Position numbers and translations under genes: made by a program
Source: an uncultured Pseudomonadota bacterium
GTDB lineage: Bacteria > Pseudomonadota > Gammaproteobacteria > Burkholderiales > Burkholderiaceae_C
Assembly (NCBI GenBank): GCA_945952465.1
Contig: CAMFIB010000001.1
Coordinates: 1,612,001-1,676,000, forward strand
Length of the DNA stretch: 64,000 nt
Direction of reading: 5' to 3'
Shown here: piece by piece, positions 25,501-59,407 of the stretch
How the letters are laid out: each line of letters opens with the position of its first letter
How positions within the stretch are numbered: position 1 is the stretch's first letter
The notes under the pieces: generated by a model
What the model was told of the DNA's origin: nothing
Seen by the model: the letters and a program-made list of their open reading frames with translations, nothing else
The model's database searches: none

Positions 25501-26025
25501 ATGCTCTCAGAGGCCGTGCGCGCGCTCAAGGCCGGCCACGAACCCGACCTGCTGAGCCCGCTGCACGTCACCACCGAGATCAACCTGCACGCGCCCGCCC
25601 TGCTGCCCAACGACTACTGCGGCGACGTGCATTTGCGGCTGTCGTTCTACAAGAAGCTCGCCACCGCGAAGAACGCCGCGCAGATCGACACGCTGCAAGA
25701 AGAAATCGTCGACCGCTTCGGCAAGCTGCCGCCGCAGGCGCAGACACTCATCGACGTGCACCGCCTGCGCGTGCTCGCCCGCCCCTACGGCGTGGTGAAA
25801 GTCGACGCCGCGCCCGGCGTCACCCACATCACCTTCCGGCCCAACGCGCCTGTCGAAGCGATGCGCATCATCGCGCTGATCCAGAAGAACCGGCACATCC
25901 GGCTGGTCGGCAACGAGAAGCTGCGCATCGAGCGGGAGTTGAAGGAACCGAAGGATCGGGCGCAGATCGTCCGGGATGTGTTGCGCAGTCTGGGAGAGCC
26001 GGTCGAGGGGCGAATGAATGCTTAA
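22540..26025 (+). CDS. mfd: Transcription-repair coupling factor
   Basis: DNA translocase that removes RNA polymerase stalled at lesions and recruits UvrA. 1161 residues, standard length. The N-terminal UvrB-like domains (GLRCALFPDWETLPYDSFSP) are followed by the RNA polymerase-interacting domain (GDPVVHSAHGIARYRGL near residue 485). The SF2 motor has Walker A GDVGFGKTEVAL near residue 640, DEEH (IIDEEHRFGV) near 737, TATPIPRTLGMAL and a motif VI region QLRGRVGRS. The C-terminal TRCF domain closes it. The start is GTG at 22540; no ATG exists near the domain start. Its stop codon (26023-26025) lies inside the terminal core site of the last integron attC. Confidence 0.96.
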   Translation: MDLPRLVPGKRYTLPRPAGSADALLLARFGEREAQAGHRTLIVTSDATDAQRLIDEMAFFAPGLRCALFPDWETLPYDSFSPHQDLISERLATLWRISQGEADVVLVPATTALYRVAPPSFLAAYTFHFKVKQKLDEARLKAQLTLAGYEHVTQVVSPGEYAVRGGLIDLFPMGSPVPYRVDLFDDEIDSIRTFDPDSQRSLYPVPEVRLLPGREFPMDDAARARFRSRWRELLEGDPTKSRMYKDIGNGVATAGIEYYLPLFFEDTATVFDYLAPEGRDDAATVVLHGDLEPAFQRFWQDTRDRYRLVQSDPERPVLPPESLFLGTEAFYARANRHAQLAVRPGVADVEDNAHFLKLENLSVVRGAEEPLQRLQDHIRNTRQRVLLLAESAGRLASLLDFLRAGGVSPPAFDSLAEFEASDEKTGIAVAPLAVGFGWLEAGVDFVTETELFAAGPTTRRRRKQEQVSDVEALIKDLSELNVGDPVVHSAHGIARYRGLVNLDLGEKDANGEPALQEFLHLEYADKATLYVPVSQLHLISRYTGVSADEAPLHKLGSGQWEKAKRKAAEQVRDTAAELLNIYARRAAREGFAFRFAAKDYESFANDFGFDETADQNAAIHAVIQDMISPRPMDRLVCGDVGFGKTEVALRAAFIAVTGGKQVALLAPTTLLAEQHYQTLKDRFAKWPVKVAEVSRFRSTKEVNATVKGLADGTVDIVVGTHKLLSESTKFANLGLLIIDEEHRFGVRHKEAMKALRAEVDVLTLTATPIPRTLGMALEGLRDLSVIATAPQRRLAIKTFVRNEGNGVIREAVLRELKRGGQVYFLHNEVETIENRRAKLEEILPEARIVVAHGQMPERELERVMREFVAQKHNLLLCSTIIETGIDVPTANTIVISRADKFGLAQLHQLRGRVGRSHHQAYAYLMVPDKEGLTKQAAQRLDAIQQMEELGSGFYLAMHDLEIRGAGEMLGENQSGNMLEVGFQLYNEMLSEAVRALKAGHEPDLLSPLHVTTEINLHAPALLPNDYCGDVHLRLSFYKKLATAKNAAQIDTLQEEIVDRFGKLPPQAQTLIDVHRLRVLARPYGVVKVDAAPGVTHITFRPNAPVEAMRIIALIQKNRHIRLVGNEKLRIERELKEPKDRAQIVRDVLRSLGEPVEGRMNA

Positions 26026-26077
26026 CGTTGGCGCTAAGCGGCAGCCGGAGGACGTCCGCTTGAGCAACGGGTTAGCT
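26020..26077 (-). repeat. Integron attC site 4 (distal end, abuts mfd)
   Basis: 58-bp imperfect palindrome read on the minus strand as AGCTAAC ... GTTAAGC. Inner boxes CTCAAGCGG and CCGCTTAGCG have the usual attC asymmetry. It follows the stop of cassette gene 4 by 10 nt. Its left R box AGCTAAC is complementary to the GTTAGCT at the head of cassette 4, as expected for a true cassette. The outer GTTAAGC overlaps the mfd stop codon. Confidence 0.88.
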
Positions 26078-26086
26078 GCCATGGTG

Positions 26087-26395
26087 CTACTCCCGCGAGA
26101 TAACCCGAACGCCGCCACCGCTGAGCACCCAACCCGTGTGACCACTTGGTGCTTGAACTTTGAGAGTCTCGAAGTCCTTGCCATAGCGAACACGCAGAAC
26201 CTGTAGTGCCTGCCCAGGCTGCAGCGTTTCGATGGACGGATTGACCTCAGGGTACTCGTGCGGAGGCAATGCGAGCAGCGATTCGGTGCCTACGACAGTT
26301 ACGACATACCGACGGTCTGCCGCGACATCTGCCAGCCAGAACACTGCGGCAGCAAGCGCAACAGCGGCAATGGCAACGGCGCTTCGTTTCAGCAT
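26087..26395 (-). CDS. Integron cassette 4: membrane-anchored SH3-like protein
   Basis: 102 residues. An N-terminal hydrophobic helix (residues about 5-24, AVAIAAVALAAAVFWLADVA) acts as signal or anchor. The rest is beta-rich, ending in LQVLRVRYGKDFETLKVQAPSGHTGWVLSG, which resembles a bacterial SH3 (SH3_3-type) domain, where Gly-x-x-Gly-Trp-Val is typical. The start is 10 nt from the upstream cassette junction, the usual compact cassette arrangement. Not a resistance gene that I recognise; function unknown. Confidence 0.75.
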   Translation of the reverse strand: MLKRSAVAIAAVALAAAVFWLADVAADRRYVVTVVGTESLLALPPHEYPEVNPSIETLQPGQALQVLRVRYGKDFETLKVQAPSGHTGWVLSGGGVRVISRE

Positions 26396-26404
26396 GCGAG
26401 GGGC

Positions 26405-26462
26405 AGCTAACGCCTGACATCAGCCGCCGCCAAAGGCCGTCGGCTGGAAGGAAATGTTAGGC
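26405..26462 (-). repeat. Integron attC site 3
   Basis: 58-bp palindromic site read on the minus strand as GCCTAAC ... GTTAGCT, with inner boxes CCAGCCGACGG and CGGCGGCTGATG. It lies between cassette gene 3 (stop 42 nt before it) and the start of cassette gene 4. Confidence 0.9.
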
Positions 26463-26503: not shown

Positions 26504-26827
26504 CTACCCAATTCGCCACCGAACGCTAGGCCCAATGCCGGGAGCCAGCTTTGCGCAAGCCATTGCTTCGGCGAGAGAAAGGAAAGCTCCGCCACCGGCA
26601 TTGAAAACTCCCCGCTCACTAGTTGAGCCATATTGAACATAGAACGCTTCTCGATCTTGGTCATTCTGAACTCCAGGCGGATCTTGGTAGTCCCTGCTCC
26701 CGTACAGAACCGGGCTTCGAATGACTCGGATGTCGCATTCGATTTCTCCAGCATAGAGAAATGTTCCCACCATCACCACGATTTCGCCCGGTTGGAATTC
26801 ACTAACACAAGGCCTAACGTTTGACAT
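26504..26827 (-). CDS. Integron cassette 3: hypothetical protein
   Basis: 107 residues, no recognised domain. A beta-rich opening (GEIVVMVGTFLYAGEIECDIRV), a polar centre (GSRDYQDPPGVQNDQDREAF) and a Gly/Ala-rich end (GVFNAGGGAFLSLAEAMACA) suggest a small globular cytoplasmic protein. The only in-frame ATG near the start (26825-26827) lies within the attC of the previous cassette and gives MSNVR. The alternative starts inside the cassette (GTG/GTG/ATG near 26773-26779) would cut into the protein. Codon use and GC are lower than in the flanking core genes. Confidence 0.65.
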   Translation of the reverse strand: MSNVRPCVSEFQPGEIVVMVGTFLYAGEIECDIRVIRSPVLYGSRDYQDPPGVQNDQDREAFYVQYGSTSERGVFNAGGGAFLSLAEAMACAKLAPGIGPSVRWRIG

Positions 26828-26889
26828 GAGCTGTGGGTGGAGGCGGGCGAAGCCCGCCGGAAGCCGTCAGATCGATGGAATGGCTAGGC
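26812..26889 (-). repeat. Integron attC site 2
   Basis: 78-bp site, longer than the others because of a perfect GGCGGGC-ttc-GCCCGCC-type hairpin in its middle. Read on the minus strand it begins GCCTAGC (one change from the RYYYAAC consensus) and ends GTTAGGC. It directly follows the stop of cassette gene 2. Confidence 0.87.
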
Positions 26890-26890
26890 A

Positions 26891-27616
26891 TCACAGGCCA
26901 GCGACTGACACGCTTTTTCCCTCGGCTTTAATGGCTTCCAGATCTGAATCGCTGAGATCAAACCACTCACCTTCGAGCCGCTTGGCGTGATACCTCAGAT
27001 GAAAGCTTCGTTCAGCTTGTGTGTAGTCTTCAAACCAAGCGTAGTGTTCAACAGAGGTATGAAAGGGTAGGCGCACTGCAAATAGCCTAGTTCTGCTTCT
27101 GAGATTTACGGTCTTGCCGATCTTGAAGCCGAGTTTCGAACGTATGACGTAAACATATCCCCCTGTCGGCGAAGACGACGGTCTTGACGTGCGGTCAGAT
27201 GCTGGCGGTTGTACACCAAACTCAAGGTTCGCAAATTCTGGGAAGTGCTCAGCGAACAATACTTCGAGCAGATAGCGCTCGACTACATCTTTGGCATACC
27301 CAAAGAATGGTTTGGTCTGTGTCCACCATCTCCGCCCGGCTGGGTTGGGCCGGAATCTGATTTCAACAGGGCGCCAATCGACTTCTGCGGAGGCAAACGA
27401 GCGTTCGACTTCTCGAACGACACCGAGAGCTTCGACTCTTCCCAATTGAGATTCCGCATCCCAACTCGCCAAGGTGATACCGTGCCGAGGGCGGATTTTG
27501 TGGATCAATTCTCGCGGCAACTCAACCGAGACGGCGGAGTTCAGCGACGCCATCGGAGACGCAGAATTCGCAATAGGCCTTAGTCGCCAAAACTGTTTCG
27601 GAGACGGTGACGTCAT
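26891..27616 (-). CDS. Integron cassette 2: GIY-YIG (T5orf172/MUG113-like) nuclease-domain protein
   Basis: 241 residues. The C-terminal domain (about 153-230) has the GIY-YIG superfamily layout of the T5orf172/MUG113 branch: GYVYVIRS, then FKIGKTVNLRSRTR, and the late EGEWFDLS. This domain cleaves DNA in homing endonucleases and phage-related proteins; catalysis here is inferred. The N-terminal 140 residues (Trp/Arg-rich centre WRPVEIRFRPN, then KDVVERYLLEVLFAEHFPEF) match nothing I recognise. The ATG at 27616 is nine nt from the cassette junction. It is followed at once by an attC site. A defence or mobile-element role is plausible. Confidence 0.78.
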   Translation of the reverse strand: MTSPSPKQFWRLRPIANSASPMASLNSAVSVELPRELIHKIRPRHGITLASWDAESQLGRVEALGVVREVERSFASAEVDWRPVEIRFRPNPAGRRWWTQTKPFFGYAKDVVERYLLEVLFAEHFPEFANLEFGVQPPASDRTSRPSSSPTGGYVYVIRSKLGFKIGKTVNLRSRTRLFAVRLPFHTSVEHYAWFEDYTQAERSFHLRYHAKRLEGEWFDLSDSDLEAIKAEGKSVSVAGL

Positions 27617-27624
27617 TTTGTGAT

Positions 27625-27682
27625 ACCTAACGTTTGAATTCACCGGCCGCCTGAGGCGGTCCGGTGGAATGATGGGTTAGGC
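27625..27682 (-). repeat. Integron attC site 1
   Basis: 58-bp site read on the minus strand as GCCTAAC ... GTTAGGT, with inner boxes TTCCACCGGACCGCC and GGCGGCCGGTGAATTC forming a strong stem. The last 13 codons and the stop of cassette gene 1 lie inside it. Confidence 0.92.
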
Positions 27683-28275
27683 AGTTCAACCATAGTGGAC
27701 AAACCCTTCGATTTACGAAACTTGCCAAGCTCTCCAGCCCAAACACGGCTCACTTCCAGGAGAGTGAACGCGAGAGGACCAACGCATTCCGGCGTGAAAA
27801 ATGTGTTCTCGGGTCCAAGGTCTCGGTTGATGAACTCGAAGATATCTCCATGACAAATGTTGTTCCGCTGTCGTACGACTTCAACATCTATGCGATTAGG
27901 CTTCGCTGTATTCAGATTTTCCAGGAAATTGGTTTCACCGGGAAATGCTAGTGCCTCCACGGGCATGCCAACTTCTTGGGCGTTGAGAATTAGGTTGTTG
28001 CTCAGAACGCGATACGGGGATAGCTCATCAAGCGGCTTCCCTACCGATGCGCCAGACACCTGGGCGATGGTGACGCGTAAGCTGGCCTCGACGCCATTTA
28101 GCAATGAGGACACGCCAGGAACGTAGTATTCATTCCGGATCGCGTCTAAACCTTGAACGAAGAACCAGTGGAATTCTGCTGCACAGAGCGTCTCGAAGAA
28201 GTGATTGCGCTCCTGTGCCCAAGGAGCATTCTTTACGAAGTGCTCAATGATGTGTTGCGCGTGAGACTTCTCCAT
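27640..28275 (-). CDS. Integron cassette 1: HEPN-like protein
   Basis: 211 residues, mostly helical by composition. Residues 137-142 (RNNICH, in VVRQRNNICHGD) fit the R-x4-H motif of HEPN domains, whose members include RNase toxins and abortive-infection proteins. The preceding helices (HWFFVQGLDAIRNEYYVPG near 36-54, LLNGVEASLRVTI near 58-70) fit a HEPN-type bundle, but fold assignment by eye is tentative. The start ATG is seven nt from the attI-side core site. The final residues 199-211 (PNPSFHRTASGGR) are encoded by the attC, a feature known for cassette genes of chromosomal integrons. No antitoxin gene accompanies it. Confidence 0.7.
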   Translation of the reverse strand: MEKSHAQHIIEHFVKNAPWAQERNHFFETLCAAEFHWFFVQGLDAIRNEYYVPGVSSLLNGVEASLRVTIAQVSGASVGKPLDELSPYRVLSNNLILNAQEVGMPVEALAFPGETNFLENLNTAKPNRIDVEVVRQRNNICHGDIFEFINRDLGPENTFFTPECVGPLAFTLLEVSRVWAGELGKFRKSKGLSTMVELPNPSFHRTASGGR

Positions 28276-28409: not shown

Positions 28410-29118
28410 CGACGCAACCGCCGCCGCCCTCTCCTTGCCTGCTCGATCAGTTGCGTGCGCGGCTGCGGTACCGGCATTACAGCTTGGCCACGGAGAAGCT
28501 GTACGTGTATTAGGCGCGATTCTTCGTGCGGCTCCACGGCTCGCGCCATCCCAAGGACATGGGCGGGGCGGAGGTGGAAGCGCTTTTGTCGCATCTGGCC
28601 AATGAGCGCCAAGTGGCGCCGTCCACGCACAAGCAGGCGCTGGCCGCCAGCCTGTTTCTCTACAGGGAAGTGCTGCAAATCGATCTGCCGTGGAGGAACG
28701 AAATCGGTCGGCCACGCACGCAGCACCGCATCCCGGTGGTTCTGACGGTTCCGGAGGTTCAACAGACGCTGGCGCTGCTGGATGCCGGCCATCTGGTGCA
28801 TGGCCTGCTGGCGCGGCTGCTGTACGGCACGGGCATGCGCATCATGGAGGCCGGCTGCGCGTGAAGGATGTCGATTTCGATGACGGCGCCACCGTGTTGC
28901 GAGAAGACGAGGGTGGCACATCTGCTGCACCGTGGCACCGGCATCCGCACGGTGCAGGCACTGTTAGACCACACCGACGTGCGCACCACTATGCCCCCCC
29001 CGTGCGCTGAAGATCGGCGGGGGGGGTGGTGAGCCCGCTCGATGTGCTGATGCCCACGGCGGCCACCGGCGCGCCTTCCCGCGAAGCGCTGGAACACATC
29101 AACGCCATGCCGCTCTGA
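28391..29118 (+). pseudogene. intI: Decayed integron integrase (IntI-type tyrosine recombinase)
   Basis: Clear remnant of an integron integrase, divergent from the cassettes as in a normal integron. The N-terminal part reads LLDQLRARLRYRHYSLATEK, then YVY-stop-ARFF: an in-frame TAG (28511-28513) stands where the family has Trp. The frame resumes with [34 protein letters not shown] and LLYGTGMRI. It shifts frame near 28856 ([14 protein letters not shown]), then jumps to HLLHRGTGIRTVQALLDHTDV. The centre with the catalytic Arg/His boxes is therefore gone. A C8 run follows where MIYTH, with the catalytic Tyr, should be. The end SPLDVLM to TGA 29118 matches the family C-terminus. No activity is possible. 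Confidence 0.92.
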
Positions 29119-59058: not shown

Positions 59059-59148
59059 TGGAAACGAACGAAGGGACAGTGTCCTCGCCGGCCTCCCCGC
59101 CAGCGCATGGACGTGACAGCCCGCCGCAAGGCGCGACGGACCACTGCG

Positions 59149-59360
59149 TTGGCCGGTATCCGGGCTGACGGACCTGCTCCGACCGCCTTCCCGGCCGCGC
59201 ATGCGCGCTCGCCAGTGGCTGTTGATCGAAGCCGAACCGGTGTGAGAACCGGTTCGTCCGCTTACCGTTGCGGGGGCAGCGCAGGTTGGTCGGGCACCGT
59301 TGCGGCCCCTTCCCCCTGCTTCCCGTTGAACTGCGGGGTGTGAACCACACCGCGAGCACC
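59149..59360 (-). promoter_or_regulatory. Cobalamin (B12) riboswitch
   Basis: Read on the minus strand it starts with GGTGCTCGCGGTG, then GGGAAGCAGGG, the hallmark GCTGCCCCCGCAACGGTAAG (59261-59280), a GAACCGGTTCTCACACCGGTTC hairpin, AGCCACTGG, GGGAAGGCGG, and closes with CCCGGATACCGGCC. This is the conserved order of an adenosylcobalamin riboswitch. It ends about 90 nt before the btuB start, and a TAGAAT hexamer upstream (near 59386) may be the promoter -10. Confidence 0.95.
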
Positions 59361-59407
59361 AACCCTGATATTCTAAGCTCGCCCCCGCACCTACAATCAC
59401 CGCGACC

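Follow-up and report, generated by a model that had tools for sequence, protein, structure and literature searches.

Integron cassettes mostly carry genes of unknown function, and one such cassette, in the 64,000-nucleotide stretch of DNA analysed here (the window), raises the question of what a short protein would do with a nuclease domain fused to an N-terminus that sequence comparison does not recognize. The preliminary description of this locus had claimed an open reading frame (ORF) in which a GIY-YIG module is joined to residues it could not place, and had suggested an uncharacterised DNA-targeting protein inside an integron cassette. Our analysis points to a single-protein type IV (modification-dependent) restriction enzyme as the best explanation, which we regard as reasonably probable. 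The ORF and its two domains lie at the following positions:

26891 to 27616, minus strand: 241-residue ORF with a predicted EVE/YTH-like N-domain and a GIY-YIG (MUG113/T5orf172) C-domain, from ORF reading, Pfam and relatives
27221 to 27595, minus strand: predicted N-terminal EVE/YTH (PUA-like) domain, residues about 8-132, from AlphaFold2, Foldseek/VIA and alignment
26924 to 27160, minus strand: GIY-YIG nuclease domain, residues about 153-231, from Pfam and a 25-domain alignment

The reading frame is intact from an ATG at 27616 to a stop at 26891, with the motifs GYVYVI at residues 153-158, FKIGKT at 164-169 and GEWF at 216-219, and the plus-strand reading over the same interval is riddled with stops. 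Two Cupriavidus copies of the gene differ by 33 synonymous and 14 non-synonymous changes, giving a dN/dS of 0.12 overall, 0.19 for the N-half and 0.08 for the C-half, so both halves of the protein are under purifying selection. The Cupriavidus pair was used in place of a Pseudomonas pair that has too few changes for such an estimate, and for the window gene against its Pseudomonas counterpart dS was saturated. Because full-length relatives at 39-59% identity occur in distant bacteria and selection is evident in the Cupriavidus pair, the sequence comparisons exclude a chance ORF; the reading frame is real, and its two-domain fusion recurs in relatives.

The C-terminal GIY-YIG module was confirmed by two Pfam profiles scoring above their cut-offs, MUG113 (PF13455; 44.7 bits against a cut-off of 22.3, E = 2e-11) and T5orf172 (PF10544; 30.8 bits against 20, E = 4.3e-7), both of which matched 9/9 aligned family members. 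NCBIfam and PADLOC matched no part of the 241-residue protein, and PHROGs matched its C-terminal part only. In an alignment of 25 MUG113-type domains, drawn from the EVE-like/GIY-YIG family and from other families, Tyr156, Lys165, Gly167, Arg175, Glu202 and His206 are invariant. Neither of the two findings that would speak against a GIY-YIG nuclease, a failure to match its profiles or the loss of the Tyr/Arg/Glu residues, was made, as Tyr156, Arg175 and Glu202 are retained throughout. The YIG tyrosine is replaced by Lys165, and all 25 aligned domains have KIG or KVG at this place, so by its sequence the C-domain is filed with the MUG113-type subfamily rather than with canonical GIY-YIG domains. 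This lysine, present here and in all aligned relatives, could also be taken to mean that the protein is catalytically dead and acts as a reader or regulator only. We think that quite improbable, since lysine at this position is the rule across the MUG113-type set, Tyr156, Arg175, Glu202 and His206 are all invariant, and selection on the C-half, at the value given above, is strong. Separately, we observed another family of MUG113-type nucleases, about 240-260 residues long and sharing a different N-terminus, that recurs in the same order (L033, L034, L035, L063, L064 and L065).

No sequence profile recognized the N-terminal region. Residues 1-151 scanned alone, the separate search that had been proposed for this part, gave no Pfam match, and the N-domain found no match in Pfam, NCBIfam, PHROGs, PADLOC or a PDB sequence profile search. 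The EVE profile PF01878 matched 0/8 N-domains at E values up to 1, and hhalign comparison with 14 canonical EVE sequences taken from relatives aligned the expected strands at a probability, 1.7, that is not significant. The earlier verdict that the N-terminus could not be placed therefore stood for sequence profiles and fell to structure prediction, which found an EVE/YTH fold. The N-domain of the AlphaFold2 model of the window protein has pLDDT mostly above 80, and VIA matched this model first to VcaM4I (EVE-HNH; Z 8.9, rmsd 3.3, 114 aligned residues), then to EVE and YTH domains and to the N-terminal domain of Thermococcus McrB. An AlphaFold2 model of the Shewanella N-domain, 36% identical, had pLDDT 87.8 and pTM 0.80; its best 50 Foldseek rows were all EVE or YTH (top E 9e-5, probability 1.00), and VIA matched it to PH1033 (EVE; Z 10.4, rmsd 3.2, 110 aligned), YTHDC2 (Z 10.2) and VcaM4I (Z 9.5). 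The two models, which were both built with one small set of relatives and are not fully independent, agree on a clear predicted EVE/YTH fold, a branch of the PUA superfamily. A viral structure library returned one named EVE-domain protein among mixed matches and is not part of the main evidence. Since PF01878 did not match and the hhalign result was not significant, we call the domain EVE/YTH-like and not a PF01878 member, its membership being assigned by predicted fold alone.

Across the 8-member alignment of N-domains R11, G59, G94, W98, F105, Y115 and L117 are invariant, and W98, F105 and Y115 are candidates for the aromatic residues of a base pocket. On the modelled fold the preferred base may be either modified cytosine, as for VcaM4I, or 6mA, as for YTH domains. 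The YTH likeness bears on the kind of nucleic acid as well: YTH is the joint best fold match, many of the matched YTH domains are m6A RNA readers, and there are proposals of type IV systems that target RNA (CoCoNuTs, PMC11090510). The protein might thus be an effector whose YTH/EVE-like domain reads modified RNA and whose nuclease cuts RNA, leading to growth arrest instead of restriction. We consider this unlikely, as the characterised T5orf172/GIY-YIG enzymes that the literature search turned up cut DNA.

The EVE-like N-domain and the nuclease occur together in ten proteins, the window protein included. Searches of 84,980 species genomes recovered eight full-length relatives, 39-54% identical when the full alignment is counted (two from Pseudomonas, two from Cupriavidus, and one each from Shewanella, Pigmentiphaga, a Burkholderiales MAG and an Anaerolineales MAG), and a ninth, from Variovorax sp. 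WDL1 at 31% identity, came from a plasmid collection. Apart from the window genome, none of 399 order, 398 phylum and 200 family genomes held a full-length relative; these searches gave C-domain matches only, and those that were read out come from another MUG113-type family, whose N-terminus is different. The few and scattered occurrences of the combination in this sequence sampling suggest that it has spread horizontally.

The same pattern extended to phages, where 50,697 phage records yielded no full-length relative and IMG/VR profile scans yielded C-domain matches or nothing. Some phage proteins have a C-domain that is 36-39% identical, and work on phage homing-type nucleases (PMC10448857) discusses T5orf172 domains, which would fit a selfish nuclease akin to the phage T5orf172 homing endonucleases, with an N-domain that binds a specific DNA sequence. 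The predicted N-domain fold is EVE/YTH, however, with no homing DNA-binding module, and the fusion did not appear in either phage search, so we give this explanation very little weight.

The genomic neighbourhoods of several relatives, which the preliminary description had proposed to check for defence islands or cassettes, contain defence genes. Both Pseudomonas genomes, P. orientalis and P. cichorii, carry a Gabija GajA/GajB pair about 1 kb from the relative; the P. orientalis genes match at 8e-108 (GajA) and 7e-49 (GajB), and this species additionally encodes an Mrr-type nuclease in the vicinity. The relative in the Burkholderiales MAG is near a type I restriction subunit, and upstream of the Shewanella relative, with one unknown gene between, is an AAA_15/AAA_21 ATPase with a likeness to candidate defence proteins. 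The association is descriptive and covers a handful of loci. Pigmentiphaga and the Burkholderiales MAG also share a conserved gene of no known function directly upstream (34% identity; L008:3666-4952 and L009:1559-2656), a possible operon partner.

These neighbourhoods also bear on a role in DNA repair or quality control, in which the GIY-YIG domain would nick, as UvrC does once damage has been recognised, beside a damaged or spontaneously altered base found by the EVE-like domain. The GIY-YIG fold is common to UvrC, EVE and PUA domains read altered bases generally, and anatomy alone does not separate damage from modification. We nevertheless judge a repair enzyme improbable, because the distribution is very patchy, with the order, phylum and family genomes holding no full-length relative beyond the window genome, and because the clearest cases neighbour defence genes and not repair genes.

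The features of the array in which the restriction enzyme candidate lies are, from the integrase outward:

28439 to 28993, plus strand: pseudogene of an integron integrase, covering model positions 1-135 (interrupted by a TAG) and, beyond these, 270-295 only
27640 to 28275, minus strand: first cassette ORF, 211 residues, no family match in Pfam, NCBIfam, PHROGs or PADLOC
27627 to 27681, minus strand: attC of the preceding cassette, bounding the EVE-like/GIY-YIG cassette on its 5' side (R'' GCCTAAC ... R' GTTAGGT)
26814 to 26888, minus strand: attC of the EVE-like/GIY-YIG cassette (R'' GCCTAGC ... R' GTTAGGC)
26407 to 26461, minus strand: attC of the next cassette, which has a 107-residue ORF at 26504-26827
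26087 to 26395: last cassette ORF, 102 residues, with a hydrophobic segment at its start and weak SH3_3 similarity below cut-off
26022 to 26076, minus strand: attC-like site of the last cassette, ends conserved, single-strand fold no better than shuffles

All four attC sites have one orientation and share ends near GCCTAAC...CGTTAGGC. Folding was judged on single strands against shuffled sequences, and both sites that bound the EVE-like/GIY-YIG ORF fold better than shuffles (z -4.9 for the 5' site and -2.2 for its own attC). The cassettes point away from the integrase remnant, which NCBIfam models PRK15417 (3.7e-37) and integrase_gron (7.5e-34) identify on 28526-28861. By its sequence this integrase is a pseudogene, because it has an internal stop and only the two listed segments are left, model positions 136-269 having been lost; with the integrase broken, the array is stranded, and its own integrase can no longer shuffle the cassettes. 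Several genomes of the same family carry intact integron integrases. The GC content drops from about 0.68 to 0.55 in the cassette part of the window, as expected for acquired cassettes, and a promoter scan found no sigma-70-like promoter near the head of the array. The ORF thus sits between attC sites in a four-attC array whose adjoining intI is only a pseudogene, which upholds the proposal that it is an integron cassette.

Other observations were made around the array. In the sequence of the first cassette ORF we read RNNICHGD, which has the R-x4-H pattern known from HEPN ribonucleases, and this is possibly another defence or toxin cassette. About 95 kb from the integron, two more attC-like cores, CCTAACGTTTGA and CCTAACGTGTGA, lie on the minus strand about 780 bases apart (L078, G000:C1:1540500-1546500); a simple attC scan of this region found no complete attC, and the cores are perhaps a second cassette cluster that lacks an integrase. 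The window also contains a cobalamin riboswitch at 59134-59378 on the minus strand (Rfam RF00174, 70.5 bits).

As a type IV restriction enzyme, the protein would use its EVE/YTH-like N-domain to scan incoming DNA, and an aromatic pocket of this domain would hold a modified base that has been flipped out. The GIY-YIG domain, tethered through about 20 residues of flexible linker, would cut the strand close by with the help of Tyr156 and Arg175, while Glu202 would bind a metal ion. Phages and plasmids with modified bases would be destroyed, and unmodified host DNA would be spared. From this anatomy, a nuclease by sequence and a reader by predicted fold, we infer the base flipping, base specificity, DNA cleavage and anti-phage effect, and for each mechanistic step analogy offers a known precedent: VcaM4I for base flipping, the wH-GIY-YIG enzymes for a sensor joined to a nuclease, and CMoRE for type IV defence. 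Modification-dependent restriction is further supported by the lack of a methyltransferase among the four cassette ORFs (ORF list, Pfam and NCBIfam) and by the recovery of reader and nuclease through profile and predicted fold. Points against it are that EVE profiles do not see the N-domain, that EVE/YTH domains also read RNA, that the YIG tyrosine is a lysine and that no promoter was found. The idea of a DNA-targeting protein is consistent with these results, and the EVE/YTH-like fold together with the GIY-YIG domain narrows it to predicted modification-dependent restriction.

Several described proteins resemble this one in part. Numerous EVE/GIY-YIG fusions were predicted in silico as type IV restriction enzymes by Bell et al. 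2020 (PMC7641849); each of them likewise unites an EVE-family reader and a GIY-YIG-superfamily nuclease in a single chain, and the role predicted for them is the same, whereas the window protein has an EVE-like domain invisible to Pfam, a MUG113/T5orf172-type nuclease and an integron-cassette location. This comparison was made by description, and the subfamily may already figure among those fusions. VcaM4I (PMC7897488), the best VIA match of the window model, is an EVE-HNH modification-dependent restriction endonuclease whose EVE domain flips the base into a pocket of P24, W82 and Y130; it is also a compact single protein with an N-terminal EVE reader and a C-terminal nuclease, but that nuclease is HNH and not GIY-YIG. 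Ahi29725I and Apa233I (PMC11037411), wH-GIY-YIG endonucleases tested as type IV enzymes, similarly fuse a modification sensor to a GIY-YIG nuclease, although they sense Gm6ATC through a winged helix and not an EVE/YTH fold.

CMoRE / PD-T4-3 (PMC12923530), which protects against T-even phages, is a single-component type IV enzyme that also has a GIY-YIG nuclease, with a GIYxY-YIG motif and inhibitory acidic loop as its own feature. Its nuclease is N-terminal and its sensor fold unrelated, and with the domain order reversed and an EVE/YTH-like N-domain the window protein was rejected as a member. PADLOC likewise assigned it to no known defence system. ICP1 Gp88 (Odn; PMC8263062) has a T5orf172-type nuclease, shown to cut DNA, behind an N-terminal domain that targets DNA, and its catalytic Arg and Glu are retained while its motif otherwise departs; it differs in being phage-encoded and in targeting through a RepA-like origin-binding domain.

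The literature search found no experimental study of an EVE/GIY-YIG fusion, so the label "uncharacterised" holds for experiment and lapses for prediction, such fusions having already been reported in silico. As they were already predicted by Bell et al., the window protein fits best within the predicted EVE/GIY-YIG kind, as a new and divergent member, and does not make a new kind. More doubtfully, this protein and its relatives could represent a distinct class of modification-dependent restriction that pairs an EVE/YTH-like reader, diverged too far for sequence profiles to recognise, with a MUG113-type nuclease, occurs in defence islands and an integron cassette, and reads a base that is maybe not 5mC/5hmC; by analogy, 6mA, as for YTH, or a phage hypermodification may be examples.

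One use proposed for compact modification-dependent nucleases is the mapping of modified bases (PMC12923530). Many integron cassettes encode phage defence, according to a passage of PMC12444791 that cites such work, and the location of this predicted type IV restriction enzyme adds to reports of phage defence genes in cassettes. As an enzyme of 241 residues with a possible ability to read modified DNA, it would be a concrete and easily tested example of a cassette product, and results on it would bear on the role of the whole EVE/GIY-YIG class.
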